Assembly (NCBI GenBank): GCA_009746045.1
Contig: RPFO01000127.1
Span: forward strand, 1,117,720-1,181,719
Source of the DNA: Mesostigma viride
Lineage: Eukaryota > Streptophyta > Mesostigmatophyceae > Mesostigmatales > Mesostigmataceae
Length of the DNA: 64,000 nucleotides
Direction: 5' to 3'
Shown piece by piece: positions 32,297-63,492 of the stretch. The position numbers and the translations under genes are program-made. How positions within the stretch are numbered: position 1 is the first letter of the stretch; the number at the start of each line of letters is the position of its first letter. The notes under the pieces were generated by a model, which saw only the letters and a list, made by a program, of their open reading frames with translations, had not been told where the DNA came from and ran no database searches.

Positions 32297-32996
32297 GATG
32301 GACCCGAAAAATAGAAAAAACCCGAAAAACCGCATACATGTACATAGATGGAACCGAAAAACCGCATAGATTGATCCGAAAAACAACATCACAACATCAA
32401 CATCAACATTCAACATTCCAACATTCGACAACAACTCTGGTTTACACTAGCAGCCAACAACCTGGACGCACACCACCATGCCAGCGCGAGTGCGCGACAA
32501 ATGGCGCGAAAAGCGTGCTCCATCAAAGCTTCAGCAGAAAAAGCATCGAAACCAAAGATGCCACAATGATGCGCATGCTGAGGGCATCAGCCCGGCATCG
32601 TATCAAATTATGCCGGAAGTCTGCGGTGCTCAAGTGGCCCCGGACTAGCTGTACTGTGGTTTCGGGCACACATGAGGTGAAGTCAATCGCAGCGTCGTAT
32701 GCACGGTATGCCATTTTGTCTGAAGGAATATTCCCTTGTATGGTGTAAGCCATTGAATGCAGGCACAAGGGCCGTCTTTCGGCAGGTAAGGGGCTTCCGG
32801 TGCCTGCACAGCATCAACCCTTCCCTGCCGCCGCGGCCTTTATTTTGAAGATTAACAAAATTTCTGGCTCAGCGAGTGCGGTACATTTCTCACGGACATG
32901 CCGCGGATTTGCTGAAGCAGAGGGGATCCGATATTCGCCTCGTACCCTAAGTTGCTTCGCCGAAATCCCCCGCAGTCATATCTTGTTTCTCCCGCG
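32297..32996 (+). other. 5' flank of the inositol-kinase-like gene
   Basis: It contains three ACCCGAAAAA / CCGAAAAACCGCATA-type repeats (32300-32380) whose related copy lies left of the mariner-like element at 31248. A 56-codon basic frame at 32478-32648 begins MPARVRDKWREKR. It is only faintly like ribosomal protein eL41 and is not called. Confidence 0.4.
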
Positions 32997-42191: not shown

Positions 42192-42260
42192 GGAGAAATG
42201 TCCGAGTGGAATGCTATGTATGGGGTAACTTTCCCAAGGGTTCGAATCCCTCTTTCTCCA
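42192..42260 (+). pseudogene. Deleted organelle-type trnS relic
   Basis: A 7-bp acceptor stem (GGAGAAA with TTTCTCC), a D-arm start TCCGAGTGG, a variable arm GGGG...TCCC and a T-arm AGGGTTCGAATCCCT are present. At 69 nt it is about 20 nt short of a serine tRNA: the 3' D-stem, the 5' anticodon stem and the anticodon are missing. The sequence style and AT-rich flank suggest an organelle fragment in nuclear DNA. Confidence 0.7.
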
Positions 42261-42362
42261 TTAGAGTTTTGTTTAGCTTCTATTCTCGTCTACACATAAT
42301 TCACACGAAGTACGCTTGCAAATACTTTATTACTATTTTGTTTGATATACTACACTAATATT

Positions 42363-43585
42363 AGTTACGTTAAATAGTGCCGGAACCTTTTGCCGCCTGA
42401 GGCAAATCGGTCCGTCACACTATTTTGCCCGGAATAACCACTTCCGAGCACCCAAGTTAATTCGGCCGAATTAACTTGGGTGCTCGGAAGTGGTTATTCC
42501 GGGCAAAATAGTGTGACGGACCGATTTGCCTCAGGCGGCAAAAGGTTCCGGCACTATTTAACGTAACTAAAACCTGGCCTCGTGGAGGGGGACGAAGAGC
42601 CCGAGACATCCGCCTAGGCCGCTGAGCACGCACCACTAAATGCGCCGGAGCTGCCTCAGTGAGGATTCGAACCCCTGACCTCCAAGGTGCACAGGTTTTA
42701 GTTACGTTAAATAGTGCCGGAACCTTTTTGCCGCCTGAGGCAAATCGGTCCGTCACACTATTTTGCCCGGAATAACCACTTCCGAGCACCCAAGTTAATT
42801 CGGCCGAATTAACTTGGGTGCTCGGAAGTGGTTATTCCGGGCAAAATAGTGTGACGGACCGATTTGCCTCAGGCGGCAAAAAGGTTCCGGCACTATTTAA
42901 CGTAACTAAAACCTGGCCTCGTGGAGGGGGGACGAAGAGCCCGAGACATCCGCCTAGGCCGCTGAGCACGCACCACTAAATGCGCCGGAGCTGCCTCAGT
43001 GAGGATTCGAACCCCTGACCTCCAAGGTGCACGGGTTTTAGTTACGTTAAATAGTGCCGGAACCTTTTTGCCGCCTGAGGCAAATCGGTCCGTCACACTA
43101 TTTTGCCCGGAATAACCACTTCCGAGCACCCAAGTTAATTCGGCCGAATTAACTTGGGTGCTCGGAAGTGGTTATTCCGGGCAAAATAGTGTGACGGACC
43201 GATTTGCCTCAGGCGGCAAAAGGTTCCGGCACTATTTAACGTAACTAAAACCCGTGCACCTTGGAGGTCAGGGGTTCGAATCCTCACTGAGGCAGCTCCG
43301 GCGCATTTAGTGGTGCGTGCTCAGCGGCCTAGGCGGATGTCTCGGGCTCTTCGTCCCCCTCCACGAGGCCAGGTTTTAGTTACGTTAAATAGTGCCGGAA
43401 CCTTTTTGCCGCCTGAGGCAAATCGGTCCGTCACACTATTTTGCCCGGAATAACCACTTCCGAGCACCCAAGTTAATTCGGCCGAATTAACTTGGGTGCT
43501 CGGAAGTGGTTATTCCGGGCAAAATAGTGTGACGGACCGATTTGCCTCAGGCGGCAAAAAGGTTCCGGCACTATTTAACGTAACT
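42363..43585. mobile_element. Compound palindromic element, copy 1 (1,223 bp)
   Basis: Flanked by the 5-bp duplication ATATT (42358-42362, 43586-43590). The order is palindrome 42363-42568, spacer 42569-42699 (+), palindrome 42700-42907, spacer 42908-43039 (+), palindrome 43040-43246, spacer 43247-43377 (inverted), palindrome 43378-43585. Each palindrome is two ~103-bp arms meeting at TTCGGCCGAA, with outer ends AGTTACGTTAAATAG. The spacer contains GGTTCGAATCC, a perfect pol III B-box consensus, and no ORF. No known superfamily is recognised. Confidence 0.92.
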
Positions 43586-43590
43586 ATATT

Positions 43591-43750
43591 ATAATAGTTG
43601 TGTGTGTGTGTTGTTCACGTGTGCGTGTGTGTGTTGTGTGTGTTGTGTGTGTTGTGCGTGTGCGTGTGCGTGTGCGTGTGCGTGTGCGTGTGCGTGTGCG
43701 TGTGTGTGTGTATATAATTTTTTGTTGTGTGTGTGTGTTGTGTGTTGTAC
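43591..43750 (+). repeat. (GT)n/(GTGTGC)n microsatellite
   Basis: TG dinucleotides with CG steps lead into the 40-bp satellite. Almost all of it alternates purine and pyrimidine. Confidence 0.95.
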
Positions 43751-46700
43751 GTGCAAGGTGTATGTACATGTGTGTGCAGCCGGCCCTTGCGTGCGCGGTG
43801 TGTGTACGTTTCTGTGCAGCCGCCCCTTGCGTGCGCGGTGTATGTACGTGTGTGTGCATGCCGGCCCTTGCGTGCATGGTGTGTGTACGTGTGTGTGCAG
43901 CCGCCCCTTGCGTGCGCGGTGTATGTACATGTGTTTGCACTCGCCCATTGCGTGCGCGGTGTATGTACGTGTGTGTGCAGCCGCCCCTTGCGTGCGCGGT
44001 GGATGTACGTGTGTGCGCACTCGCCCCTTGCGTGCGCGGTGTATGTACGTGTGTGTGCAGCCGCCCCTTGCGTGCGCGGTGTATGTACATGTGTGTGCAT
44101 CCTTGTCCTTGCGTGCATGGTGTATGTACATGTGAGTGCCGTCGCCCCAACCGTGCATTGTGTATGTACGTGTGTGTGCAGCCGCCCCTTGCGTGCATGG
44201 TGTGTGTACATGTGTGTGCATCCTTGTCCTTGCGTGCATGGTGTATGTACATGTGTTTGCACTCGCCCCTTGCGTGCGCGGTGTGTGTACGTGTGTGTGC
44301 AGCCGCCCCTTGCGTGCATGGTGTGTGTACATGTGTGTGCATCCTTGTCCTTGCGTGCATGGTGTGTGTACATGTGTGTGCAGCCGCCCCTTGCGTGCGC
44401 GGTGGATGTACATGTGCGGGCAGTTGCCCCTTGCGTGCGCGGTGTATGTACATGTGTTTGCACTCGCCCCTTGCGTGCGCGGTGTATGTACATGTGTGTG
44501 CAGCCGCCCCTTGCGTGCATGGTGTATGTACATGTGCTTGCACTGGCCCCGTGCGTGCGCGGTGTATGTACGTGTGTGTGCAGCCGCCCCTTGCGTGCGC
44601 GGTGTATGTACGTGCGTGTGCAGCCGCCCCTTGCGTGCGCGGTGTATGTACATGTGTGTGCATCCTTGTCCTTGCGTGCGCGGTGTATGTACATGTGTTT
44701 GCACTCGCCCCTTGCGTGCGCGGTGGATGTACATGTGTGTGCAGCCGCCCCTTGCGTGCATGGTTTATGTACATGTGTGTGCAGTCGCCGGCCCCGTGCG
44801 TGCGCAGTGGATGTACGTGTGTGTGCAGCCGCCCCGTGCGTGCATGGTGTGTGTACGTGTGTGTGCAGCAGCCCCTTGCGTGCGCGGTGTATGTACGTTT
44901 CTGTGCATGCCGGCCCTTGCGTGCATGGTGTATGTACATGTGCTTGCACTGGCCCCTTGCGTGCGCGGTGTATGTACGTGTGTGTGCAGCCCCCCCTTGC
45001 GTGCGCGGTGTATGTACGTGTGTGCGCACTCGCCCCTTGCGTGCGCGGTGTATGTACGTGTGTGTGCAGCCGCCCCTTGCGTGCGCGGTGTATGTACATG
45101 TGTGTGCAGCCGCCCCTTGCGTGTGCGGTGGATGTACATGTGCGGGCAGTTGCCCCTTGCATGCGCGGTGTATGTACATGTGTTTGCACTCGCCCCTTGC
45201 GTGCGCGGTGTATGTACATGTGTGTGCAGCCGCCCCTTGCGTGCATGGTGTATGTACATGTGCTTGCACTGGCCCCGTGCGTGCGCGGTGTATGTACGTG
45301 TGTGTGCAGCCGCCCCTTGCGTGCGCGGTGTATGTACGTGTGTGCGCACTCGCCCCTTGCGTGCGCGGTGTATGTACGTGTGTGTGCAGCCGCCCCTTGC
45401 GTGCGCGGTGTATGTACATGTGTGTGCATCCTTGTCCTTGCGTGCGCGGTGTATGTACATGTGTTTGCACTCGCCCCTTGCGTGCGCGGTGTATGTACAT
45501 GTGTGTGCAGCCGCCCCTTGCGTGCATGGTTTATGTACATGTGTGTGCAGTCGCCCCGTGCGTGCGCAGTGTATGTACGTGTGTGTGCAGCCGCCCCTTG
45601 CGTGCGTGGTGTGTGTACATGTGAGTGCAGCCGCCCCTTGCGTGCGCGGTGTATGTACGTGTGTGTGCAGCAGCCCCTTGCGTGCTTTGTGTGTGTACAT
45701 GTGTGTGAATCCTTGTCCTTGCGTGCATGGTGTGTGTACGTGTGTGTGCAGCCGCCCCTTGCGTGCATGGTGGATGTACATGTGAGTGCCGTTGCCCCTT
45801 GCGTGCGCGGTGTATGTACGTGTGTGTGCAGCCATCCCTTAATTGCGTGCGCGGTGTGTGTACGTGTGTGTGCACTCGCCCCTTGCGTGCGCGGTGTATG
45901 TACGTGTGTGCAGCCGCCCCTTGCGTGCGCGGTGTATGCCAGTGTGTGTGCATGCCGGCCCTTGCGTGCAAGGTGGTGTGTAAGTGTGTGTGCAGCCCCT
46001 TGCGTGCATGGTGTATGTACGTGTGTGTGCAGCCGGCCCTTGCGTGCATGGTGTGTGTACATGTGAGTGCAGCCGTCCCTTCCGTGCATGGTGTGTGTAC
46101 GTGTGTGTGCAGTTGCCCCTTGCGTGCGCGGTGTATGTACGTGTGTGTGCAGCAGCCCCTTGCGTGCTTTGTGTGTGTACATGTGTGTGAATCCTTGTCC
46201 TTGCGTGCATGGTGTATGTACGTGTGTGTGCAGCCGTCCCTTAATTGCGTGCGCGGTGTGTGTACGTGTGTGTGCACTCGCCCCTTGCGTGCGCGGTGTA
46301 TGTACGTGTGTGCAGCCGCCCCTTGCGTGCGCGGTGTATGCCAGTGTGTGTGCATGCCGGCCCTTGCGTGCAAGGTGGTGTGTAAGTGTGTGTGCAGCCC
46401 CTTGCGTGCATGGTGTATGTACGTGTGTGTGCAGCCGGCCCTTGCGTGCATGGTGTGTGTACATGTGAGTGCAGCCGTCCCTTCCGTGCATGGTGTGTGT
46501 ACGTGTGTGTGCAGTTGCCCCTTGCGTGCGCAGTGTATGTACGTGTGTGTGCATGCCGGCCCTTGCGTGCATGGTGTGTGTACGTGTGTGTGCAGTTGCC
46601 CCTTGCATGCGCGGTGTATGTACATGTGAGTGCAGCCGCCCAAGAGTATGTACATGTGAGTGCCGTCGCCCCTAATTGCGTGCATTGTGTGTGTAAGTGT

Positions 46701-47012
46701 GTGTGCAGCAGCCCCTTGCGTGCGCGGTGTATGTACGTGTGTGTGCAGCCGCCCCTTGCGTGCATGGTGTATGTACATGTGAGTGCCGTTGCCCCTTGCG
46801 TGCGCGGTGTATGTACGTGTGTGTGCAGCCGTCCCTTAATTGCGTGCGCGGTGGATGTACATGTGCGGGCAGTTGCCCCTTGCGTGCGCGGTGTATGTAC
46901 GTGTGTGTGCAGCCGTCCCTTGCGTGCGCGGTGTATGTACGTGTGTGTGCAGCCGCCCCTTGCGTGCATGGTGAGTGTAAGTGTGTGTGCAGCAGCCCCT
47001 TGCGTGCGCAGT
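43751..47012 (+). repeat. 40-bp satellite, left block
   Basis: The unit is TGTATGTACGTGTGTGTGCA followed by GCCGCCCCTTGCGTGCGCGG, with many point variants. Nearly the whole unit alternates purine and pyrimidine except the GCCGCCCC core. It lacks stops in all six frames, which gives very long repetitive open frames with no credible gene. Confidence 0.97.
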
Positions 47013-47017
47013 GTATG

Positions 47018-47811
47018 AGTTACGTTAAATAGTGCGTTAAATGTGAGTTGCGTTAAATAGTTATTCCGGGCAAAATAGTGTGACGGACCGATTTGCCTCA
47101 GGCGGCAAAAGGTTCCGGCACTATTTAACGTAACTAAAACCTGGCCTCATGGAGGGGGGACGAAGAGCCCGAGACATCCGCCTAGGCCGCTGAGCACGCA
47201 CCACTAAATGCGCCGGAACTGCCTCAGTGAGGATTCGAACCCCTGACCTCCAAGGTGCACAGGTTTTAGTTACGTTAAATAGTGCCGGAACCTTTTGCCG
47301 CCTGAGGCAAATCGGTCCGTCACACTATTTTGCCCGGAATAACCACTTCCGAGCACCCAAGTTAATTCGGCCGAATTAACTTGGGTGCTCGGAAGTGGTT
47401 ATTCCGGGCAAAATAGTGTGACGGACCGATTTGCCTCAGGCGGCAAAAGGTTCCGGCACTATTTAACGTAACTAAAACCTGTGCACCTTGGAGGTCAGGG
47501 GTTCGAATCCTCACTGAGGCAGTTCCGGCGCATTTAGTGGTGCGTGCTCAGCGGCCTAGGCGGATGTCTCGGGCTCTTCGTCCCCCCTCCATGAGGCCAG
47601 GTTTTAGTTACGTTAAATAGTGCCGGAACCTTTTGCCGCCTGAGGCAAATCGGTCCGTCACACTATTTTGCCCGGAATAACCACTTCCGAGCACCCAAGT
47701 TAATTCGGCCGAATTAACTTGGGTGCTCGGAAGTGGTTATTCCGGGCAAAATAGTGTGACGGACCGATTTGCCTCAGGCGGCAAAAGGTTCCGGCACTAT
47801 TTAACGTAACT
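47018..47811. mobile_element. Compound palindromic element, copy 2 (794 bp), inserted in the satellite
   Basis: Flanked by the 5-bp duplication GTATG (47013-47017, 47812-47816), which is satellite sequence on both sides. The order is collapsed palindrome 47018-47135, spacer 47136-47267 (+), palindrome 47268-47473, spacer 47474-47605 (inverted), palindrome 47606-47811. The first palindrome lost most of its left arm and shows scrambled AGTTACGTTAAATAGTGCG repeats, as after hairpin breakage and repair. Confidence 0.92.
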
Positions 47812-47816
47812 GTATG

Positions 47817-50800
47817 TACGTGTGTGTGCAGCCGCCCCTTGCGTGCGCGGTGTGTGTATACTGTGTGTGCATGCCGGCCCTTGCGTGCATGGTGTGTGTA
47901 CGTGTGTGTGCAGCCGCCCCTTACATGGGCGGTGTATGTACGTGTGTGTGCATGCCGGCCCTTGCGTGCGCGGTGTATGTACGTGTTAATGCAGCCGCCC
48001 CTTGCGTGCGCAGTGTATGTCCATGTGTGGGCAGTTTCCCCTTGCGTGCGCGGTGTATGTACGTGTGTGTGCAGCCGGCCCTTGCGTGCGCGGTGTGTGT
48101 ACATGTGTGTGCAGTTGCCCCTTGCGTGCGCGGTGTATGTAAGTGTGTGTGCAGCCGGCCCTTGCGTGCGCGGTGTGTGTACATGTGAGTGCAGCTGCCC
48201 CAAGCGTGCGCGGTGTGTGTACATGTGTGTGCAGTTGCCCCTTGCGTGCGCGGTGGATGTACGTGTGTGTGCATGCCGGCAATTGCGTGCATGGTGTGTG
48301 TACGTGTGTGTGCAGCCGCCCCTTGCGTGCGCGGTGTGTGTACGTGTGTGTGCACTCGCCCCTTGCGTGCGCGGTGGATGTACATGTGTGTGCAGCCGCC
48401 CCTTGCGTGCATGGTGTATGTACGTGTGTGTGCAGCCGCCCCTTGCGTGCGCGGTGTATGTACGTGTTAATGCAGCCGCCCCTTCCGTGCGCAGTGTATG
48501 TCCATGTGTGGACAGTTTCCCCTTAATTGCGTGCGCGGTGTATGTACGTGTGTGTGCAGCCGCCCCTTGCGTGCGCGGTGGATGTACGTGTGTGTGCAGC
48601 CGCCCCTTGCGTGCGCGGTGTGTGTACGTGTATGTGCAGCCGCCCCTTGCGTGCGCGGTGTAGACAGTATGTACATGTGAGTGCCGTCGCCCCAAGCGTG
48701 CATTTTGTGTGTCAGTGTGTGTGCAGCAGCCCCTTGCGTGCGCGGTGTATGTACGTGTGTGTGCAGCCGCCCCGTGGTTGCGCGGTGGATGTACATGTGA
48801 GTGGAGTTGCCCCTTGCGTGCGCGGTGTATGTACGTGTGTGTGCAGCCGCCCCTTGCGTGCGCGGTGTAGGTACGTGTGTGTGCAGCCGCCCCAAGCGTG
48901 CGCGGTGTATGTACGTGTGTGTGCAGCCGGCCCTTGCGTGCATGGTGTGTGTACGTGTGTGTGCAGCCGGCCCTTGCGTGCGCGGTGTAGGTACGTATGT
49001 GTGCAGTCGCCCCTTGGGTGCGCGGTGTAGGTACGTATGTGTGCAGCCGCCCCTTGCGTGCGCGGTGTATGTACGTGTGTGTGCAGCCGCCCCTTGCGTG
49101 CATGGTGTATGTACATGTGAGTGCCGTTGCCCCTTGCGTGCGCGGTGTATGTACGTGTGTGTGCAGCCGTCCCTTAATTGCGTGCGCGGTGTGTGTACGT
49201 GTGTGTGCAGCCGCCCCTTGCGTGCATGGTGAGTGTACCTGTGCGTGAAGTCGCTCCTTGCGTGCATGGTGTGTGTACGTGTGTGTGCAGCCGCCCCTTG
49301 CGTGCATGGTGTATGTACATGTGAGTGCCGTTGCCCCAAGCGTGCATTGTGTGTGTAAGTGTGTGTGCAGCCGGCCCTTGCGTGCATGGTGTGTGTACAT
49401 GTGAGTGCAGCCGGCCCTTGCGTGCATGGTGTGTGTACGTGTGTGTGCAGTTGCCCCTTGCGTGCGCGGTGTATGTACGTGTGTGTGCAGCCGCCCCTTG
49501 CGTGCGCGGTGTGTGTACATGTGAGTGCAGCCGCCCCAAGCGTGTGTACATGTGTGTGCAGTTGCCCCTTGCGTGCGCAGTGGATGTACGTGTGTGTGCA
49601 TGCCGGCAATTGTGTGCATGGTGTGTGTACGTGTGTGTGCGGCCGCCCCTTGCGTGCGCGGTGTGTGTACGTGTGTGTGCACTCGCCCCTTGCGTGCGCG
49701 GTGTATGTACGTGTGTGCAGCCGCCCCTTGCGTGCGCGGTGTATGCCAGTGTGTGTGCATGCCGGCCCTTGCGTGCATGGTGAGTGTAAGTGTGTGTGCA
49801 GCCCCTTGCGTGCATGGTGTATGTACGTGTGTGTGCAGCTGCCCCTTGCGTGCGCGGTGTGTGTACGTGTGTGTGCAGCCGCCCCTTGCGTGCGCGGTGT
49901 ATGTACGTGTGTGTGCAGCCGGCCCTTGCGTGCATGGTGTGTGTACGTGTGTGTGCAGCCGGCCCTTGCGTGCGCGGTGGATGTACATGTGTGTGCAGTC
50001 GCCCCTTGCGTGCGCGGTGTAGGTATACGTATGTGTGCAGCCGCCCCTTGCGTGCGCGGTGTAGGTACGTGTGTGTGCAGCCGCCCCAAGCGTGCGCGGT
50101 GTATGTACGTGTGTGTGCAGCCGGCCCTTGCGTGCATGGTGTGTGTACGTGTGTGTGCAGCCGGCCCTTGCGTGCGCGGTGGATGTACATGTGTGTGCAG
50201 TCGCCCCTTGGGTGCGCGGTGTAGGTACGTATGTGTGCAGCCGCCCCTTGCGTGCGCGGTGTATGTACGTGTGTGTGCAGCCGCCCCGTGGTTGCGCGGT
50301 GTATGTACATGTGTGTGCAGTTGCCCCTTGCGTGCGCGGTGTATGTACGTGTGTGTGCAGCCGCCCCTTGCGTGCGCGGTGTAGGTACGTGTGTGTGCAG
50401 CCGCCCCAAGCGTGCGCGGTGTGTGTACATGTGTGTGCAGTTGCCCCTTGCGTGCGCGGTGTGTGTACGTGTGTGTGCAGCCGCCCCTTGCGTGCGCGGT
50501 GTATGTACGTGTGTGTGCAGTTGCCCCTTGCGTGCGCGGTGGATGTACGTGTGTGTGCAGCCGGCCCTTGCGTGCGCGGTGTGTGTACATGTGAGTGCAG
50601 CTGCCCAAGCGTGCGCGGTGTGTGTACATGTGTGTGCAGTTGCCCCTTGCGTGCGCGGTGGATGTACGTGTGTGTGCAGCCGCCCCTTGCGTGCGCGGTG
50701 TAGGTACGTGTGTGTGCAGCCGCCCCAAGCGTGCGCGGTGTGTGTACGTGTGTGTGCACTCGCCCCTTGCGTGCGCGGTGGATGTACATGTGTGTGCAGC

Positions 50801-53800
50801 CGCCCCTTGCGTGCATGGTGTATGTCCATGTGTGGGCAGTTGCCCCTTGCGTGCGCGGTGTATGTACATGTTTTTGCACTCGCCCCTTGCGTGCATGGTG
50901 TATGTATGTGTGTGTGCAGCCGCCCCTTGCGTGCGCGGTGGATGTACGTGTGTGTGCAGCCACCCCTTTCGTGCGCGGTGTATGTACATGTGAGTGCCGT
51001 CGCCCCAAGCGTGCATTTTGTGTGTAAGTGTGTGTGCAGCAGCCCCTTGCGTGCGCGGTGTATGTACGTGTGTGTGCAGCCGCCCCGTGGTTGCGCGGTG
51101 GATGTACATGTGAGTGGAGCCGGTCCTTGCGTGCGCGGTGTATGTACGTGTGTGTGCAGCTGCCCCTTGCGTGCGTGGTGTGTGTACATGTAAGTGCAGC
51201 CGCCCCTTGCGTGCGCGGTGTATGTACGTGTGTGTGCAGCCGCCCCAAGCGTGCGCGGTGTGTGTACATGTGAGTGCAGCTGCCCCAAGCGTGCGCGGTG
51301 GATGTACGTGTGTGTGCATGCCGGCAATTGCGTGCATGGTGTGTGTACGTGTGTGTGCAGCCGCCCCTTGCGTGCGCGGTGTGTGTACGTGTGTGTGCAC
51401 TCGCCCCTTGCGTGCGCGGTGGATGTACATGTGTGTGCAGCCGCCCCTTGCGTGCATGGTGTATGTCCATGTGTGGGCAGTTGCCCCTTGCGTGCGCGGC
51501 GTATGTACATGTTTTTGCACTCGCCCCTTGCGTGCATGGTGTATGTATGTGTGTGTGCAGCCGCCCCTTGCGTGCGCGGTGGATGTACGTGTGTGTGCAG
51601 CCACCCCTTTCGTGCGCGGTGTATGTACATGTGAGTGCCGTCGCCCCAAGCGTGCATTTTGTGTGTAAGTGTGTGTGCAGCAGCCCCTTGCGTGCGCGGT
51701 GTATGTACGTGTGTGTGCAGCCGTCCCTTGCGTGCGCGGTGTATGTACGTGTGTGTGCAGCCGCCCCTTGCGTGCATGGTGAGTGTAAGTGTGTGTGCAG
51801 CCGCCCCTTGCGTGCGCGGTGTAGGTACGTATGTGTGCAGCCGCCCCTTGCGTGCGCGGTGTATGTACGTGTGTGTGCAGCCGCCCCAAGCGTGCGCGGT
51901 GTGTGTACATGTGAGTGCAGCTGCCCCAAGCGTGCGCGGTGTGTGTACATGTGTGTGCAGTTGCCCCTTGCGTGCGCGGTGGATGTACGTGTGTGTGCAT
52001 GCCGGCAATTGCGTGCATGGTGTGTGTACGTGTGTGTGCAGCCGCCCCTTGCGTGCGCGGTGTGTGTACATGTGAGTGCCGTCGCCCCAAGCGTGCATTT
52101 TGTGTGTAAGTGTGTGTGCAGCCGCCCCTTGCGTGCATGGTGTATGTACGTGTGTGCGCACTCGCCCCTTGCGTGCGCGGTGTAGGTACGTATGTGTGCA
52201 GCCGCCCCTTGCGTGCGCGGTGTATGTACGTGTGTGTGCAGCCGCCCCAAGCGTGCGCGGTGTGTGTACATGTGAGTGCAGCTGCCCCAAGCGTGCGCGG
52301 TGTGTGTACATGTGTGTGCAGTTGCCCCTTGCGTGCGCGGTGGATGTACGTGTGTGTGCATGCCGGCAATTGCGTGCATGGTGTGTGTACGTGTGTGTGC
52401 AGCCGCCCCTTGCGTGCGCGGTGTATGTACATGTGTGTGCATCCTTGTCCTTGCGTGCGCGGTGTATGTACATGTGTTTGCACTCGCCCCTTGCGTGCGC
52501 GGTGGATGTACATGTGTGTGCAGCCGCCCCTTGCGTGCATGGTTTATGTACATGTGTGTGCAGTCGCCGGCCCCGTGCGTGCGCAGTGGATGTACGTGTG
52601 TGTGCAGCCGCCCCGTGCGTGCATGGTGTGTGTACGTGTGTGTGCAGCAGCCCCTTGCGTGCGCGGTGTATGTACGTTTCTGTGCATGCCGGCCCTTGCG
52701 TGCATGGTGTATGTACATGTGCTTGCACTGGCCCCTTGCGTGCGCGGTGTATGTACGTGTGTGTGCAGCCCCCCTTGCGTGCGCGGTGTATGTACGTGTG
52801 TGCGCACTCGCCCCTTGCGTGCGCGGTGTATGTACGTGTGTGTGCAGCCGCCCCTTGCGTGCGCGGTGTATGTACATGTGTGTGCAGCCGCCCCTTGCGT
52901 GTGCGGTGGATGTACATGTGCGGGCAGTTGCCCCTTGCGTGCGCGGTGTATGTACATGTGTTTGCACTCGCCCCTTGCGTGCGCGGTGTATGTACATGTG
53001 TGTGCAGCCGCCCCTTGCGTGCATGGTGTATGTACATGTGCTTGCACTGGCCCCGTGCGTGCGCGGTGTATGTACGTGTGTGTGCAGCCGCCCCTTGCGT
53101 GCGCGGTGTATGTACGTGTGTGCGCACTCGCCCCTTGCGTGCGCGGTGTATGTACGTGTGTGTGCAGCCGCCCCTTGCGTGCGCGGTGTATGTACATGTG
53201 TGTGCATCCTTGTCCTTGCGTGCGCGGTGTATGTACATGTGTTTGCACTCGCCCCTTGCGTGCGCGGTGTATGTACATGTGTGTGCAGCCGCCCCTTGCG
53301 TGCATGGTTTATGTACATGTGTGTGCAGTCGCCCCGTGCGTGCGCAGTGTATGTACGTGTGTGTGCAGCCGTTCCTTGCGTGCGTGGTGTGTGTACATGT
53401 GAGTGCAGCCGCCCCTTGCGTGCGCGGTGTATGTACGTGTGTGTGCAGCAGCCCCTTGCGTGCTTTGTGTGTGTACATGTGTGTGAATCCTTGTCCTTGC
53501 GTGCATGGTGTATGTACGTGTGTGTGCAGCCGTCCCTTAATTGCGTGCGCGGTGTGTGTACGTGTGTGTGCACTCGCCCCTTGCGTGCGCGGTGTATGTA
53601 CGTGTGTGCAGCCGCCCCTTGCGTGCGCGGTGTATGCCAGTGTGTGTGCATGCCGGCCCTTGCGTGCAAGGTGGTGTGTAAGTGTGTGTGCAGCCCCTTG
53701 CGTGCATGGTGTATGTACGTGTGTGTGCAGCAGGCCCTTGCGTGCATGGTGTGTGTACATGTGAGTGCAGCCGTCCCTTCCGTGCATGGTGTGTGTACGT

Positions 53801-56800
53801 GTGTGTGCAGTTGCCCCTTGCGTGCGCAGTGTATGTACGTGTGTGTGCATGCCGGCCCTTGCGTGCATGGTGTGTGTACGTGTGTGTGCAGTTGCCCCTT
53901 GCATGCGCGGTGTATGTACATGTGAGTGCAGCCGCCCAAGAGTATGTACATGTGAGTGCCGTCGCCCCTAATTGCGTGCATTGTGTGTGTAAGTGTGTGT
54001 GCAGCAGCCCCTTGCGTGCGCGGTGTATGTACGTGTGTGTGCAGCCGCCCCTTGCGTGCATGGTGTATGTACATGTGAGTGCCGTTGCCCCTTGCGTGCG
54101 CGGTGTATGTACGTGTGTGTGCAGCCGTCCCTTAATTGCGTGCGCGGTGGATGTACATGTGCGGGCAGTTGCCCCTTGCGTGCGCGGTGTATGTACGTGT
54201 GTGTGCAGCCGTCCTTGCGTGCGCGGTGTATGTACGTGTGTGTGCAGCCGCCCCTTGCGTGCATGGTGAGTGTAAGTGTGTGTGCAGCAGCCCCTTGCGT
54301 GCGCAGTGTATGTACGTGTGTGTGCAGCCGCCCCTTGCGTGCGCGGTGTGTGTATACTGTGTGTGCATGCCGGCCCTTGCGTGCATGGTGTGTGTACGTG
54401 TGTGTGCAGCCGCCCCTTACATGGGCGGTGTATGTACGTGTGTGTGCATGCCGGCCCTTGCGTGCGCGGTGTATGTACGTGTTAATGCAGCCGCCCCTTG
54501 CGTGCGCAGTGTATGTCCATGTGTGGGCAGTTTCCCCTTGCGTGCGCGGTGTATGTACGTGTGTGTGCAGCCGGCCCTTGCGTGCGCGGTGTGTGTACAT
54601 GTGTGTGCAGTTGCCCCTTGCGTGCGCGGTGTATGTAAGTGTGTGTGCAGCCGGCCCTTGCGTGCGCGGTGTGTGTACATGTGAGTGCAGCTGCCCCAAG
54701 CGTGCGCGGTGTGTGTACGTGTGTGTGCAGCCGCCCCTTGCGTGCGCGGTGTATGTACATGTGTGTGCATCCTTGTCCTTGCGTGCGCGGTGTATGTACA
54801 TGTGTTTGCACTCGCCCCTTGCGTGCGCGGTGGATGTACATGTGTGTGCAGCCGCCCCTTGCGTGCATGGTTTATGTACATGTGTGTGCAGTCGCCGGCC
54901 CCGTGCGTGCGCAGTGGATGTACGTGTGTGTGCAGCCGCCCCGTGCGTGCATGGTGTGTGTACGTGTGTGTGCAGCAGCCCTTGCGTGCGCGGTGTATGT
55001 ACGTTTCTGTGCATGCCGGCCCTTGCGTGCATGGTGTATGTACATGTGCTTGCACTGGCCCCTTGCGTGCGCGGTGTATGTACGTGTGTGTGCAGCCCCC
55101 CCTTGCGTGCGCGGTGTATGTACGTGTGTGCGCACTCGCCCCTTGCGTGCGCGGTGTATGTACGTGTGTGTGCAGCCGCCCCTTGCGTGCGCGGTGTATG
55201 TACATGTGTGTGCAGCCGCCCCTTGCGTGTGCGGTGGATGTACATGTGCGGGCAGTTGCCCCTTGCGTGCGCGGTGTATGTACATGTGTTTGCACTCGCC
55301 CCTTGCGTGCGCGGTGTATGTACATGTGTGTGCAGCCGCCCCTTGCGTGCATGGTGTATGTACATGTGCTTGCACTGGCCCCGTGCGTGCGCGGTGTATG
55401 TACGTGTGTGTGCAGCCGCCCCTTGCGTGCGCGGTGTATGTACGTGTGTGCGCACTCGCCCCTTGCGTGCGCGGTGTATGTACGTGTGTGTGCAGCCGCC
55501 CCTTGCGTGCGCGGTGTATGTACATGTGTGTGCATCCTTGTCCTTGCGTGCGCGGTGTATGTACATGTGTTTGCACTCGCCCCTTGCGTGCGCGGTGTAT
55601 GTACGTGTGTGTGCAGCCGCCCCTTGCGTGCGCGGTGTATGTACGTGTGTGCGCACTCGCCCCTTGCGTGCGCGGTGTATGTACGTGTGTGTGCAGCCGC
55701 CCCTTGCGTGCGCGGTGTATGTACATGTGTGTGCATCCTTGTCCTTGCGTGCGCGGTGTATGTACATGTGTTTGCACTCGCCCTTGCGTGCGCGGTGTAT
55801 GTACATGTGTGTGCAGCCGCCCCTTGCGTGCATGGTTTATGTACATGTGTGTGCAGTCGCCCCGTGCGTGCGCAGTGTATGTACGTGTGTGTGCAGCCGT
55901 TCCTTGCGTGCGTGGTGTGTGTACATGTGAGTGCAGCCGCCCCTTGCGTGCGCGGTGTATGTACGTGTGTGTGCAGCAGCCCCTTGCGTGCTTTGTGTGT
56001 GTACATGTGTGTGAATCCTTGTCCTTGCGTGCATGGTGTGTGTACGTGTTTGTGCAGCCGCCCCTTGCGTGCATGGTGGATGTACATGTGAGTGCCGTTG
56101 CCCCTTGCGTGCGCGGTGTATGTACGTGTGTGTGCAGCCGTCCCTTAATTGCGTGCGCGGTGTGTGTACGTGTGTGTGCACTCGCCCCTTGCGTGCGCGG
56201 TGTATGTACGTGTGTGCAGCCGCCCCTTGCGTGCGCGGTGTATGCCAGTGTGTGTGCATGCCGGCCCTTGCGTGCAAGGTGGTGTGTAAGTGTGTGTGCA
56301 GCCCCTTGCGTGCATGGTGTATGTACGTGTGTGTGCAGCCGGCCCTTGCGTGCATGGTGTGTGTACATGTGAGTGCAGCCGTCCCTTCCGTGCATGGTGT
56401 GTGTACGTGTGTGTGCAGTTGCCCCTTGCGTGCGCAGTGTATGTACGTGTGTGTGCATGCCGGCCCTTGCGTGCATGGTGTGTGTACGTGTGTGTGCAGT
56501 TGCCCCTTGCATGCGCGGTGTATGTACATGTGAGTGCAGCCGCCCAAGAGTATGTACATGTGAGTGCCGTCGCCCCTAATTGCGTGCATTGTGTGTGTAA
56601 GTGTGTGTGCAGCAGCCCCTTGCGTGCGCGGTGTATGTACGTGTGTGTGCAGCCGCCCCTTGCGTGCATGGTGTATGTACATGTGAGTGCCGTTGCCCCT
56701 TGCGTGCGCGGTGTATGTACGTGTGTGTGCAGCCGTCCCTTAATTGCGTGCGCGGTGGATGTACATGTGCGGGCAGTTGCCCCTTGCGTGTGCGGTGTAT

Positions 56801-59800
56801 GTACGTGTGTGTGCAGCCGTCCCTTGCGTGCGCGGTGTATGTACGTGTGTGTGCAGCCGCCCCTTGCGTGCATGGTGAGTGTAAGTGTGTGTGCAGCAGC
56901 CCCTTGCGTGCGCAGTGTATGTACGTGTGTGTGCAGCCGCCCTTGCGTGCGCGGTGTGTGTATACTGTGTGTGCATGCCGGCCCTTGCGTGCATGGTGTG
57001 TGTACGTGTGTGTGCAGCCGCCCCTTACATGGGCGGTGTATGTACGTGTGTGTGCATGCCGGCCCTTGCGTGCGCGGTGTATGTACGTGTTAATGCAGCC
57101 GCCCCTTGCGTGCGCAGTGTATGTCCATGTGTGGGCAGTTTCCCCTTGCGTGCGCGGTGTATGTACGTGTGTGTGCAGCCGGCCCTTGCGTGCGCGGTGT
57201 GTGTACATGTGTGTGCAGTTGCCCCTTGCGTGCGCGGTGTATGTAAGTGTGTGTGCAGCCGGCCCTTGCGTGCGCGGTGTGTGTACATGTGAGTGCAGCT
57301 GCCCCAAGCGTGCGCGGTGTGTGTACGTGTGTGTGCGGCCGCCCCTTGCGTGCGCGGTGTATGTACATGTGTGTGCATCCTTGTCCTTGCGTGCGCGGTG
57401 TATGTACATGTGTTTGCACTCGCCCCTTGCGTGCGCGGTGGATGTACATGTGTGTGCAGCCGCCCCTTGCGTGCATGGTTTATGTACATGTGTGTGCAGT
57501 CGCCGGCCCCGTGCGTGCGCAGTGGATGTACGTGTGTGTGCAGCCGCCCCGTGCGTGCATGGTGTGTGTACGTGTGTGTGCAGCAGCCCCTTGCGTGCGC
57601 GGTGTATGTACGTTTCTGTGCATGCCGGCCCTTGCGTGCATGGTGTATGTACATGTGCTTGCACTGGCCCCTTGCGTGCGCGGTGTATGTACGTGTGTGT
57701 GCAGCCCCCCTTGCGTGCGCGGTGTATGTACGTGTGTGCGCACTCGCCCCTTGCGTGCGCGGTGTATGTACTTGTGTGTGCAGCCGCCCCTTGCGTGCGC
57801 GGTGTATGTACATGTGTGTGCAGCCGCCCCTTGCGTGTGCGGTGGATGTACATGTGCGGGCAGTTGCCCCTTGCGTGCGCGGTGTATGTACATGTGTTTG
57901 CACTCGCCCCTTGCGTGCGCGGTGTATGTACATGTGTGTGCAGCCGCCCCTTGCGTGCATGGTGTATGTACATGTGCTTGCACTGGCCCCGTGCGTGCGC
58001 GGTGTATGTACGTGTGTGTGCAGCCGCCCCTTGCGTGCGCGGTGTATGTACGTGTGTGCGCACTCGCCCCTTGCGTGCGCGGTGTATGTACGTGTGTGTG
58101 CAGCCGCCCCTTGCGTGCGCGGTGTATGTACATGTGTGTGCATCCTTGTCCTTGCGTGCGCGGTGTATGTACATGTGTTTGCACTCGCCCCTTGCGTGCG
58201 CGGTGTATGTACATGTGTGTGCAGCCGCCCCTTGCGTGCATGGTTTATGTACATGTGTGTGCAGTCGCCCCGTGCGTGCGCAGTGTATGTACGTGTGTGT
58301 GCAGCCGTTCCTTGCGTGCGTGGTGTGTGTACATGTGAGTGCAGCCGCCCCTTGCGTGCGCGGTGTATGTACGTGTGTGTGCAGCAGCCCCTTGCGTGCT
58401 TTGTGTGTGTACATGTGTGTGAATCCTTGTCCTTGCGTGCATGGTGTGTGTACGTGTGTGTGCAGCCGCCCCTTGCGTGCATGGTGGATGTACATGTGAG
58501 TGCCGTTGCCCCTTGCGTGCGCGGTGTATGTACGTGTGTGTGCAGCCGTCCCTTAATTGCGTGCGCGGTGTGTGTACGTGTGTGTGCACTCGCCCCTTGC
58601 GTGCGCGGTGTATGTACGTGTGTGCAGCCGCCCCTTGCGTGCGCGGTGTATGCCAGTGTGTGTGCATGCCGGCCCTTGCGTGCAAGGTGGTGTGTAAGTG
58701 TGTGTGCAGCCCCTTGCGTGCATGGTGTATGTACGTGTGTGTGCAGCCGGCCCTTGCGTGCATGGTGTGTGTACATGTGAGTGCAGCCGTCCCTTCCGTG
58801 CATGGTGTGTGTACGTGTGTGTGCAGTTGCCCCTTGCGTGCGCAGTGTATGTACGTGTGTGTGCATGCCGGCCCTTGCGTGCATGGTGTGTGTACGTGTG
58901 TGTGCAGTTGCCCCTTGCATGCGCGGTGTATGTACATGTGAGTGCAGCCGCCCAAGAGTATGTACATGTGAGTGCCGTCGCCCCTAATTGCGTGCATTGT
59001 GTGTGTAAGTGTGTGTGCAGCAGCCCTTGCGTGCGCGGTGTATGTACGTGTGTGTGCAGCCGCCCCTTGCGTGCATGGTGTATGTACATGTGAGTGCCGT
59101 TGCCCCTTGCGTGCGCGGTGTATGTACGTGTGTGTGCAGCCGTCCCTTAATTGCGTGCGCGGTGGATGTACATGTGCGGGCAGTTGCCCCTTGCGTGCGC
59201 GGTGTATGTACGTGTGTGTGCAGCCGTCCCTTGCGTGCGCGGTGTATGTACGTGTGTGTGCAGCCGCCCCTTGCGTGCATGGTGAGTGTAAGTGTGTGTG
59301 CAGCAGCCCCTTGCGTGCGCAGTGTATGTACGTGTGTGTGCAGCCGCCCCTTGCGTGCGCGGTGTGTGTATACTGTGTGTGCATGCCGGCCCTTGCGTGC
59401 ATGGTGTGTGTACGTGTGTGTGCAGCCGCCCCTTACATGGGCGGTGTATGTACGTGTGTGTGCATGCCGGCCCTTGCGTGCGCGGTGTATGTACGTGTTA
59501 ATGCAGCCGCCCCTTGCGTGCGCAGTGTATGTCCATGTGTGGGCAGTTTCCCCTTGCGTGCGCGGTGTATGTACGTGTGTGTGCAGCCGGCCCTTGCGTG
59601 CGCGGTGTGTGTACATGTGTGTGCAGTTGCCCCTTGCGTGCGCGGTGTATGTAAGTGTGTGTGCAGCCGGCCCTTGCGTGCGCGGTGTGTGTACATGTGA
59701 GTGCAGCTGCCCCAAGCGTGCGCGGTGTGTGTACATGTGTGTGCAGTTGCCCCTTGCGTGCGCGGTGGATGTACGTGTGTGTGCATGCCGGCAATCGCGT

Positions 59801-60750
59801 GCATGGTGTGTGTACGTGTGTGTGCAGCCGCCCCTTGCGTGCGCGGTGTGTGTACGTGTGTGTGCACTCGCCCCTTGCGTGCGCGGTGGATGTACATGTG
59901 TGTGCAGCCGCCCCTTGCGTGCATGGTGTATGTACGTGTGTGTGCAGCCGCCCCTTGCGTGCGCGGTGTATGTACGTGTTAATGCAGCCGCCCCTTCCGT
60001 GCGCAGTGTATGTCCATGTGTGGACAGTTTCCCCTTAATTGCGTGCGCGGTGTATGTACGTGTGTGTGCAGCCGCCCCTTGCGTGCACGGTGGATGTACG
60101 TGTGTGTGCAGCCGCCCCTTGCGTGCGCGGTGTGTGTACGTGTATGTGCAGCCGCCCCTTGCGTGCGCGGTGTATGTACATGTGAGTGCCGTCGCCCCAA
60201 GCGTGCATTTTGTGTGTCAGTGTGTGTGCAGCAGCCCCTTGCGTGCGCGGTGTATGTACGTGTGTGTGCACTCGCCCCTTGCGTGCGCGGTGGATGTACA
60301 TGTGAGTGGAGTTGCCCCTTGCGTGCGCGGTGTATGTATGTGTGTGTGCAGCCGCCCCTTGCGTGCGCGGTGTAGGTACGTGTGTGTGCAGCAGCCCCAA
60401 GCGTGCGCGGTGTATGTACGTGTGTGTGCAGCCGGCCCTTGCGTGCATGGTGTGTGTACGTGTGTGTGCAGCCGGCCCTTGCGTGCGCGGTGTAGGTACG
60501 TATGTGTGCAGTCGCCCCTTGGGTGCGCGGTGTAGGTACGTATGTGTGCAGCCGCCCCTTGCGTGCGCGGTGTATGTACGTGTGTGTGCAGCCGCCCCTT
60601 GCGTGCATGGTGTATGTACATGTGAGTGCCGTTGCCCCTTGCGTGCGCGGTGTATGTACGTGTGTGTGCAGCCGTCCCTTAATTGCGTGCGCGGTGTGTG
60701 TACGTGTGTGTGCAGCCGCCCCTTGCGTGCATGGTGAGTGTACAGTTGGA
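47817..60750 (+). repeat. 40-bp satellite, right block with higher-order repeats
   Basis: It continues the same 40-bp unit for ~12.9 kb. Rare variants (a GTGTATACTGTGTG unit near 47850, 54350, 56955 and 59365; a GTGGTGTGTAAGTG unit near 53670, 56278 and 58687) recur with ~2.4-2.6-kb spacing in the right half, revealing a higher-order repeat of about 60-65 units. Long frames (up to 2,124 codons, HTHVHTPRTQG-type repeats) arise because the unit is stop-free. Confidence 0.97.
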
Positions 60751-61540
60751 TGGAGACTAGGAACGACGAACAACTGCTGAAGCTGAAAGCGAATGATGAT
60801 TGTATTACAATAATACAATGAGAGAGCGATGAAAGCTGAGGGCTCAGAATGGAACTGGGCAAACTCGGGTGCTGTGGCACTCCCCAGTGCTACGCCTATA
60901 TGCCTATGGCGGTGCTACCTGCAGCACACGACCAGTGGACAACTGTACACTGCAATGCCATGCGACCACGTCACTAGCAACCAGCTAAGACTCGGCCCGT
61001 CAGGCCCGGCTACACCGGACCTGGCGGGTCGAGCTAGCACCTAGGAACAGTCTGGCACTAACCGCACATCGGTCCACATGACACCTCAGTACCGTACACC
61101 CTGCCGTACTGTACTGAGGTGTCCCGCTCAGCCGCGGTAGGCAATACGCGGCGCGCAGGCCGGAAATCCGTGTGTCAGCCTAAGCATCTCATCTAACTCC
61201 CATTATGTTTTCCTTTCAGGTTGAAGGCTAGCGACTTCAAGCCTGACCCTGCCCAGCTAGGAGACTGACTCCAAGCTGACTGAGGTGCTGAGCAACTGAC
61301 ACCCATACTGCAACATCTGGACTGAAAAAGATGGGCCCCAGAACTCGTGCAATACTTGTGATGGCATCACGTTTAGCTCAACATGCCCGGGGAGTTCCTC
61401 CTCCTCGCGAGCTCACAAGGGAGATAGCTATGCCTGTCTGCCTATCCAGGGAGTGCATCACCAGCCAAGAAAGCCATTGTAAAAAAAATGCCAAGGTAAC
61501 CGTTTAAGAGGTTCCATGTTGTTCCATCATCATCGCCCAC
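60751..61540. other. Unique flank right of the satellite
   Basis: No gene was seen. It contains an 18-bp inverted repeat with one mismatch (61080-61097 / 61106-61123, GACACCTCAGTAC arms) and may be part of the copia 3' LTR or host DNA. Confidence 0.4.
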
Positions 61541-62239
61541 TCAGAGAGAAAATACCCAGCCAGGCTGGGTCAACTGAGCTCAGGTTACCTGCAACCTGAG
61601 GAGTGACAGTGGACAGGTTTATTGCACCCTGCACTGTCCATGTTGTACCTGCACAACATGTGAGGACCAGCCACCCCTGCCCTGCACAGAGGGGGCTGAA
61701 GTCCGAGTGACAGGTGACAGGACTAGGACATCCTGGACCTGGCCACGTTGCACCTGCACAACGTGTGAGACCAGCCACCCCTGCCCTGCACATGGGTGAC
61801 TTGAGTCCTGGTGACAGGTGACAGGAATATGTCATCCTGCACCTGTGCTGAGCACGTTGTACTGGACAACATGACAGCATCCATGCCTTTACTGCCACTG
61901 AACAGGAAGGCCAGGTGGCCCAGGATATCCACAGTGAACTGGGGTCCTGGGTAACCACCTGTCAAGGGAGCTTTGACCCTCCACTTGCATGGGGGCACCT
62001 GAGCCACTGAGCTCAAGGCCAATCCACCAAGGCATACGCCCTAGTGAAGAAAGTTGTGAGATACATCCCATGCCCACCTATGAAGGTGTGTATAACGAAA
62101 TTCCATGGTGTTGACAAAATCAAAACAGATTTTATTGGGCATAGGGCACGCAGATGTATGAAAAACAGACTCCAACCAACCCCCCTTGCTGGAAGCCACA
62201 ACCTACCCCTTGGACCTGCCCAAGGGGTACTGGGTGACC
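61540..62239 (-). mobile_element. Probable 3' LTR / 3' end of a Ty1-copia element
   Basis: On the minus strand, downstream of the RNase H frame, a polypurine-tract-like AAGGGGGG (62180-62187) is followed by TTGGTTGGAGTCTG and an AATAAAA signal, the usual order of PPT then LTR. An imperfect ~125-bp tandem duplication (CCAGCCACCCCTGCCCTGCA at about 61665 and 61772) lies inside. The LTR left end and target duplication were not found. Confidence 0.45.
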
Positions 62240-62247
62240 TAGGCGGC

Positions 62248-63468
62248 AGTTACGTTAAATAGTGCCGGAACCTTTTGCCGCCTGAGGCAAATCGGTCCGT
62301 AACACTATTTTGCCCGGAATAACCACTTCCGAGCACCCAAGTTAATTCGGCCGAATTAACTTGGGTGCTCGGAAGTGGTTATTCCGGGCAAAATAGTGTT
62401 ACGGACCGATTTGCCTCAGGCGGCAAAAGGTTCCGGCACTATTTAACGTAACTAAAACCTGGCCTCGTGGAGGGGGGACGAAGAGCCCGAGACATCCGCC
62501 TAGGCCGCTGAGCACGCACCACTAAATGCGCCGGAGCTGCCTCAGTGAGGATTCGAACCCCTGACCTCCAAGGTGCACGGGTTTTAGTTACGTTAAATAG
62601 TGCCGGAACCTTTTGCCGCCTGAGGCAAATCGGTCCGTAACACTATTTTGCCCGGAATAACCACTTCCGAGCACCCAAGTTAATTCGGCCGAATTAACTT
62701 TGGGTGCTCGGAAGTGGTTATTCCGGGCAAAATAGTGTTACGGACCGATTTGCCTCAGGCGGCAAAAGGTTCCGGCACTATTTAACGTAACTAAAACCTG
62801 GCCTCGTGGAGGGGGGACGAAGAGCCCGAGACATCCGCCTAGGCCGCTGAGCACGCACCACTAAATGCGCCGGAGCTGCCTCAGTGAGGATTCGAACCCC
62901 TGACCTCCAAGGTGCACAGGTTTTAGTTACGTTAAATAGTGCCGGAACCTTTTGCCGCCTGAGGCAAATCGGTCCGTAACACTATTTTGCCCGGAATAAC
63001 CACTTCCGAGCACCCAAGTTAATTCGGCCGAATTAACTTGGGTGCTCGGAAGTGGTTATTCCGGGCAAAATAGTGTGACGGACCGATTTGCCTCAGGCGG
63101 CAAAAGGTTCCGGCACTATTTAACGTAACTAAAACCTGTGCACCTTGGAGGTCAGGGGTTCGAATCCTCACTGAGGCAGCTCCGGCGCATTTAGTGGTGC
63201 GTGCTCAGCGGCCTAGGCGGATGTCTCGGGCTCTTCGTCCCCCCTCCACGAGGCCAGGTTTTAGTTACGTTAAATAGTGACGGAACCTTTTGCCGCCTGA
63301 GGCAAATCGGTCCGTAACACTATTTTGCCCGGAATAACCACTTCCGAGCACCCAAGTTAATTCGGCCGAATTAACTTGGGTGCTCGGAAGTGGTTATTCC
63401 GGGCAAAATAGTGTTACGGACCGATTTGCCTCAGGCGGCAAAAGGTTCCGTCACTATTTAACGTAACT
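62248..63468. mobile_element. Compound palindromic element, copy 3 (1,221 bp), inside the copia element
   Basis: Flanked by the 5-bp duplication GCGGC (62243-62247, 63469-63473). The order is palindrome 62248-62453, spacer 62454-62585 (+), palindrome 62586-62792, spacer 62793-62924 (+), palindrome 62925-63130, spacer 63131-63262 (inverted), palindrome 63263-63468. This is the same layout as copy 1. It belongs to a variant with GTAACAC in place of GTCACAC on both arms. Confidence 0.92.
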
Positions 63469-63492
63469 GCGGCCCTGGTGAACAGGACCCTG

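Follow-up and report, generated by a model that had tools for sequence, protein, structure and literature searches.

What kind of mobile DNA is built from alternating palindromes and spacers is the question raised by a 64,000-nucleotide stretch of Mesostigma viride DNA (contig RPFO01000127.1 of assembly GCA_009746045.1, forward-strand positions 1,117,720 to 1,181,719; hereafter the window), in which one such element occurs three times. Coordinates are given as positions within the window; L-numbers denote the genome pieces examined, P a palindrome, and S+ and S- the orientations of a spacer. An earlier note, made from the sequence alone, had placed the copies at 42363-43585 (copy 1), 47018-47811 (copy 2) and 62248-63468 (copy 3), with common ends and 5-bp target duplications, and all of this proved exact on re-check. 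The flanking duplications are ATATT/ATATT, GTATG/GTATG and GCGGC/GCGGC, respectively, the longest exact flank match is 5 bp at each copy, and the palindromes of all three end outwardly in AGTTACGTTAAATAG and its complement. The longest stop-to-stop frames listed in copy 1 have 124 and 92 codons. The copies probably belong to a recently active, non-autonomous group of foldback-type DNA transposons with 5-bp duplications and without a recognised gene.

Abundance, target duplications and empty sites

The element is abundant in the 440-Mb assembly (2243 contigs). Its 15-bp terminus AGTTACGTTAAATAG occurs 2414 times in exact form (1206 + 1208), compared with 1 + 1 for the reversed pattern used as a control. 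At 1588 of these places (796 + 792) the terminus is preceded by GGTTTT, the mark of an internal junction; this share of 65.8% compares with 66.7% expected if all elements had three palindromes. About 826 outer ends remain, corresponding to about 413 insertions with 2.9 palindromes each; this estimate rests on exact matches, and any junction altered by mutation would be tallied as an outer end. When one mismatch was allowed in a pattern that has to contain CGGAACC, 3676 places were found (1827 + 1849; control 0), among them terminal forms with AGTTAGG and AGTTATT. No match to the element sequence was obtained in the prokaryote genomes searched, nor to longer element patterns in viral contigs, where a 17-base end gave five matches, each of them single.

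The pieces examined further were not random, comprising the best-scored arm matches, the first listed termini and non-canonical ends. Termini were clustered per piece, and the outermost pair of each of 55 clusters was tested for a 5-bp duplication. The piece contained both outer termini in 41 placements, and each of these carried an exact duplication; 39 are distinct insertions, two being present twice with 99.5-100% identical flanks (L033/L083 and L080/L085). Six clusters lacked a terminus (the five truncated elements L016, L021, L022, L092 and L095, and one chance motif at window position 29550) and one was cut by a piece boundary. The other seven (the first cluster of L078, L088-L091, L093 and L094) were scored as having no duplication; one flank of each is spacer sequence (GTTTT, AAAAC or AAGAC), and in our reading the contig or piece would start or end inside the element. 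By chance, a 5-bp match between two random window positions occurs with a frequency of 0.0026. In the first family of elements (family A), the longest exact flank match was 5 bp in 37/38 placements and 7 bp in one, several having been chosen because a duplication had been seen; in a second family (family B, see below) it was 5 bp in 4/4. The duplication thus fits neither hAT (8 bp) nor Tc1/mariner (TA) elements, as had been noted before.

Empty sites were searched for copies 2 and 3, and they prove insertion for both. When the flanks of copy 2 are joined around a single GTATG, they align without gaps and in full (70/70) to two places in the 40-bp satellite that surrounds it. Those of copy 3, joined with one target copy, are 107/107 identical at 40/40 scored genome places, out of 354 candidates. 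Because its flanks match many uninterrupted repeats perfectly, copy 3 is a recent insertion relative to the surrounding repeat. The view that the copies are transposed units rather than recombination products is upheld by the empty sites of two copies and by the duplications in 41/41 placements. The earlier note had named copies without 5-bp duplications, or with differing ends, as what would refute it, and the outcome, obtained in non-randomly chosen pieces, is in its favour.

Array forms and spacer order

The census of forms covered 37 elements, with two duplicates dropped and with L086 and a 78-bp element in L006 left out. One palindrome was found in 2 elements, two in 6, three in 17, four in 8, five in 3 and seven in 1. 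The commonest is the base form P S+ P S- P, which is a long inverted repeat made of three palindromes, its spacers having a fixed orientation. All 17 three-palindrome arrays have the spacer order +-, and all 8 four-palindrome arrays read ++- on one strand. Two of the five-palindrome arrays are +-+- and one is an irregular +++- (L020), while the seven-palindrome array L011 reads +++-- once a 27-bp fragment is dropped. The first spacer is + and the last is - in 29/29 arrays with two or more long spacers. Three-palindrome arrays of order ++ or -+ were not seen among the 17, although exchange in inverted register between palindromes would give both. This is the set of forms that direct unequal exchange would give if it started at +-. 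A free tandem alternation of palindromes and spacers, as first proposed, was not borne out: spacer orientation is fixed, and the palindrome number ranges from 1 to 7.

In L086 (C2167:957600-961100), a palindrome is split by a further insertion with long direct repeats, within an element flanked by CCCCC.

Possible minimal mobile forms

Much shorter forms carry the same kind of duplication. L068 is a solo P between two copies of AAGGG, L044 a diverged solo form of 236 bp with the duplication ACATG, and positions 628-705 of L006 hold a 78-bp miniature that consists of the terminus and one hairpin and is flanked by CCCCT. In both families, the arms fold (with RNA parameters) as two nested hairpins, the first formed by about the first 60 bp and followed by a smaller one. 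Copy 2 keeps only about 18 bp from the left arm of its first palindrome. Because the solo and miniature forms and the shortened arm of copy 2 are bounded by 5-bp duplications, movement probably requires neither the spacers nor the second hairpin nor the centre of the palindrome. The terminal 13-18 bp together with one hairpin may be enough, provided that the missing parts were not deleted after insertion. The palindrome-spacer alternation, which had been taken for the mobile unit itself, is therefore probably unnecessary for mobility, the 78-bp miniature and the 236-bp solo form being duplicated alike. Overall, the initial interpretation is partly supported.

A second family of the same design

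Family B was found by way of L102, which has no right terminus and is not judgeable itself. Its ends are AGTTATTATAAATAG, its palindromes are 212-214 bp and its spacers 197-198 bp long. The arms of the two families are about 77% alike over 80 bp, and the spacer bodies differ; by our comparison, all that the spacers have in common is AARACCT at the start, the sequence GGGGTTCGAATCC and an outer-edge TTTT. The layout is the same as in family A, and all 6 complete copies have 5-bp duplications: TCCAT, ACCAG, GTAAC and GTTAA in four three-palindrome copies, and GAGAA (C667) and GCGGT (C114) in two further copies that carry a retroelement, of which the ends and one internal stretch were read.

These retroelements belong to one family with long terminal repeats (LTRs; TGTTACG...CGTAACA, 91% alike), found at C114:363754-385770, at C667:2499552-2510680 and in C335 (L106, L108, L109, L114-L116, L087 and L112). 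Two family B elements each have a member inserted in their outer arm, at the identical nucleotide (target GTGAC), and a third member lies in a family A end; within the C667 insert, L114 codes for the end of a Ty3-like integrase, including a chromo domain. Palindrome ends are a possible insertion hot spot for LTR retroelements. L087 (C335) had been considered as the end of an autonomous element and was rejected, as it proved to be an LTR retroelement that has inserted into the end of an element. Likewise, L108 and L109 were considered as a composite moved as a unit; at their right junctions, however, members of this one LTR family interrupt two different family B elements, one solo and one with three palindromes, at an identical position, and recurrent insertion would be as likely as movement of a composite.

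Homogenisation of arms and halves

Two arms of the same palindrome are identical in 62/111 comparisons, compared with 139/536 between different palindromes of the same element and 2093/23884 between elements. At columns that depart from the consensus, 150 departures are shared by both arms versus 94 that differ. In family B, the two halves are identical in 3/4 elements and differ once in the remaining one, whereas halves of different elements differ 4.2 times on average; 8 non-consensus columns are shared and 1 differs. These four elements were the best matches and lean to the family consensus. We read the homogenisation as a partial self-correction of hairpins and not as proof of hairpin replication.

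Hairpin replication is the basis of an alternative that we consider unlikely, namely that the elements are amplified as single strands in a parvovirus-like manner, a folded strand being copied back on the P hairpin to give P S+ P S- P, which is then integrated. The base form is indeed an inverted dimer centred on P, every arm contains nested hairpins, and the near-identity of family B halves within elements points in the same direction, as does the central palindrome of that family, whose asymmetric core is found in either orientation (L103 and L105 versus L104). Family A halves, however, are weakly homogenised and often mosaic, the family B sample leans to the consensus by its selection, and ordinary gene conversion would look the same.

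Proposed mechanism and points against it

Under the favoured explanation of a foldback-type transposon group, an enzyme supplied in trans would recognise the outermost terminus AGTTANNNTAAATAG, probably together with the hairpin that adjoins it on the inner side; both the enzyme and the recognition are inferred. A staggered cut of 5 bp in the target is followed by insertion of the element, as the duplications and empty sites show. The base form P S+ P S- P is made up of two inverted repeats, each as long as P + S + half P, that meet at the central palindrome. Forms with 1, 2, 4, 5 and 7 palindromes would arise mainly, to judge from those seen, by direct unequal exchange or replication slippage between the repeated palindromes, in the way that solo and tandem LTRs are formed. 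Palindrome arms, and sometimes whole halves, would be partly homogenised by self-templated repair or hairpin gene conversion, as the comparison of arms partly supports.

Several observations weigh against this explanation. Six of the 39 distinct placements lie, by flank similarity, in the 40-bp satellite, where chance 5-bp matches are likelier. Arrays L011 and L020 require more than one round of exchange. Six elements mix spacers of a 132 type and a 124 type (L006, L011, L023, L033, L067 and L073), and L084 also holds both; mixed subtypes within one element mean that copies exchange sequence with each other. Rare variants are symmetric at 29 sites and confined to one arm at 50, and of the states private to one palindrome, 1 is present in both arms and 12 in a single arm. 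Spacer differences average 6.36 within elements versus 6.79 between them; family A halves differ by 6.85 within versus 9.40 between elements, a value as low as this being reached in 38/2000 shuffles. Finally, neither an autonomous partner nor a longer transposase-coding copy was found in a limited search. Three patterns for the ends with a different interior gave 50 places, 41 places (control 17) and 15 places (control 0); ten stretches holding 15 of the 50 places were read, as were 9 of the 41 places, five of them within these stretches.

Most listed matches of the third pattern (15 places) have the hairpin directly followed by the terminus, which suggests that they could be more miniatures. 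At C36:646042-646357, two ends with the first hairpin converge at a distance of about 300 bp and are followed by a different sequence, perhaps representing another short family.

A tRNA-like junction next to the central palindrome

In both families, the central palindrome adjoins a tRNA 3'-half with the B box of RNA polymerase III (Pol III), a stretch of the T arm. The Rfam tRNA model aligned over the palindrome/spacer junction with 16.3 bits in family A and 17.4 bits in family B, both below gathering, and the mascRNA model aligned on the family B junction with 21.7 bits, also below gathering. ARAGORN detected no tRNA in L104 and none inside the window copies. A full tRNA over the junction is thus not established. 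The B box is present in the family A and B elements scanned; in family B (L104), the consensus A box TGGCAAAAAGG lies 52 bp upstream of it, and an A box matching the consensus was absent from the two family A elements scanned. The junction is a possible Pol III unit, as predicted from these motifs, and its B-box tRNA 3'-half would direct any transcript outward to TTTT at the outer spacer edge. Since it is common to two families, a possible link between a Pol III unit and an element bounded by terminal inverted repeats (TIRs) becomes testable. Rfam matches to microRNAs (mir-3145 and MIR6426) were below gathering scores and were rejected, as they reflect only the long hairpins.

The junction also enters a further proposal, that of a distinct class of mobile element combining a functional Pol III tRNA-like unit with nested palindromes. 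A self-folded strand would use the central palindrome as a turn-around hairpin, each insertion would be re-made as an inverted dimer, and the number of palindromes would be a by-product. We regard this as rather improbable.

Relation to known mobile elements

The resemblance to foldback elements seen at the outset was borne out, as the element consists mainly of inverted repeats with repetition inside them and is flanked by a fixed-length duplication. Foldback or long-TIR transposons, such as FB of Drosophila and Galileo, likewise have long inverted repeats and internal repeats varying in number. Galileo (P superfamily) has 7-bp duplications, a transposase-coding form and long TIRs (PMC3573991), and elements of its type, like those described here, can be made only of two TIRs and undergo recombination between repeats. 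Unlike Galileo, the present elements have 5-bp duplications and perfect palindromes alternating with a tRNA-like spacer, and a transposase-coding form was not found in the limited search. Mutator-like elements (MULEs) with tandem TIRs have 9-11 bp duplications (PMC3310237). Like the present elements, they contain additional inner copies of the terminal repeat that lack duplications of their own, are multi-copy and are mostly non-autonomous; they differ in that the extra TIRs are in tandem, in contrast to the palindrome-spacer arrays found here, and in duplication length, as the longest flank match here was 5 bp in 41/42 placements and 7 bp in one. Long and tandem TIRs as such are thus precedented in MULEs and Galileo (PMC3310237, PMC3573991).

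Miniature inverted-repeat transposable elements share short length, lack of a recognised gene, high copy number, TIRs and a fixed-length duplication; unlike them, the present elements form series of up to 7 palindromes and more than 2 kb, have a B box and could be assigned to no superfamily. With tRNA-derived short interspersed elements they share a tRNA-related segment with a B box, TTTT after it and no recognised gene. They differ in being TIR-bounded, with a fixed 5-bp duplication and no tail; the variable duplications and 3' tail of target-primed insertion are not seen. Transib and the 5-bp hAT groups have 5-bp duplications and termini of CAC... or CAG...; the duplication length therefore fits, whereas the termini AGTTA do not.

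An LTR-type retroelement resembling terminal-repeat retrotransposons in miniature (TRIMs) is hardly probable. In it, P would be a palindromic LTR and S the internal part, with the duplication made by an integrase and the arrays by LTR-LTR exchange. Bounded by outer duplications, the solo P, P-S-P and tandem forms do mimic solo LTRs and tandem TRIMs, and duplications of 3-6 bp are given for LTR elements (PMC10045372). Against this, the ends are AG...CT and not TG...CA, spacers are inverted within single elements, palindromes differ inside one insertion, and the 78-bp miniature has no S and little of P. No primer binding site or purine tract was seen by eye; the orientation of the tRNA-like part, whose anticodon side and not its acceptor end adjoins P, speaks against the former.

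That the integrase of an element related to Polintons or virophages moves them is very improbable. Such elements have AG...CT ends and 5-6 bp duplications, and the present termini and duplication length come near to these features. For Polinton, a 6-bp duplication is given (PMC10045372). The duplications here are 5 bp, which speaks against this source. A recombination or assembly artefact can practically be dismissed: long palindromes are hard to assemble and single-base run-length differences are present, but perfect duplications at 39 distinct sites, empty sites and two families of one design speak against it.

Perfect palindromes of 200 bp are usually unstable in genomes; here, perfect palindromes of about 200 bp have been kept and spread. 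A literature search, with subscription papers and Repbase mostly outside its reach, found no description of the palindrome-chain architecture, which may nevertheless be in print. The natural series of 1 to 7 palindromes, with hundreds of copies, two families, recent activity and clean empty sites, allows transposition and palindrome recombination to be read separately.

Organisation of the window copies and neighbouring features

The palindromes had been described as perfect and about 206 bp long, with spacers of 131 bp. This holds roughly: they measure 206-208 bp, most but not all are perfect, some having an indel or mismatch, and the spacers, which begin with AAAACC and end with GGTTTT, are 131-132 bp long. 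The alternation of palindrome and spacer is likewise present, with the corrections that the last spacer of each copy is inverted and that the left block of copy 2 is no palindrome. Copies 1 and 3 are arranged as P S+ P S+ P S- P; copy 2 opens with a left block that is rearranged and continues as S+ P S- P.

Copy 1 lies between ATATT at 42358-42362 and its repeat at 43586-43590. Its first palindrome (42363-42568, 206 bp) has identical arms and is followed by a 131-bp S+ (42569-42699, + strand) with tRNA 3'-half-like sequence on the - strand. The tRNA-like stretch over the spacer/palindrome junction (42652-42741, - strand) is the one scored at 16.3 bits (gathering 29). Palindrome 2 (42700-42907, 208 bp), a second S+ (42908-43039, +), palindrome 3 (43040-43246, 207 bp, one indel between arms), S- (43247-43377, -) and palindrome 4 (43378-43585) complete the copy. 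About 100 bp to its left, at 42192-42260, lies another tRNA-like stretch (Rfam tRNA, 21.9 bits, below gathering), which resembles a remnant of a plastid tRNA-Ser with a shortened anticodon arm.

Copy 2, between GTATG at 47013-47017 and 47812-47816, begins with a left block of 118 bp (47018-47135) in which the terminal motif is kept and the remainder is rearranged. It continues with S+ (47136-47267, +), the central palindrome (47268-47473), an S- (47474-47605, -) identical to its S+, including two bases unlike most spacers, and the right palindrome (47606-47811). The copy lies inside a 17-kb array of the 40-bp satellite at 43750-60730; the same satellite also flanks element copies in L006, L012, L045, L049 and L084.

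Copy 3, with GCGGC at 62243-62247 and 63469-63473, consists of palindrome 1 (62248-62453), S+ (62454-62585, +), palindrome 2 (62586-62792, 207 bp, one indel between arms), a second S+ (62793-62924, +), palindrome 3 (62925-63130, one mismatch between arms), S- (63131-63262, -) and palindrome 4 (63263-63468), which has GTGACGG in both arms versus GTGCCGG in the other three. It sits just beyond the stop of an open reading frame, which presumably encodes a Copia RNase H; Pfam gave no match to this frame at E values up to 1.

Elsewhere in the window, a 2.4-kb array of the 8-bp unit GGGGCGTT with 98% matches extends from 11748 to 14174, and an open frame of 522 codons at 32916-34481 (+ strand) contains an inositol polyphosphate kinase domain (Pfam PF03770, E 1.2e-08).

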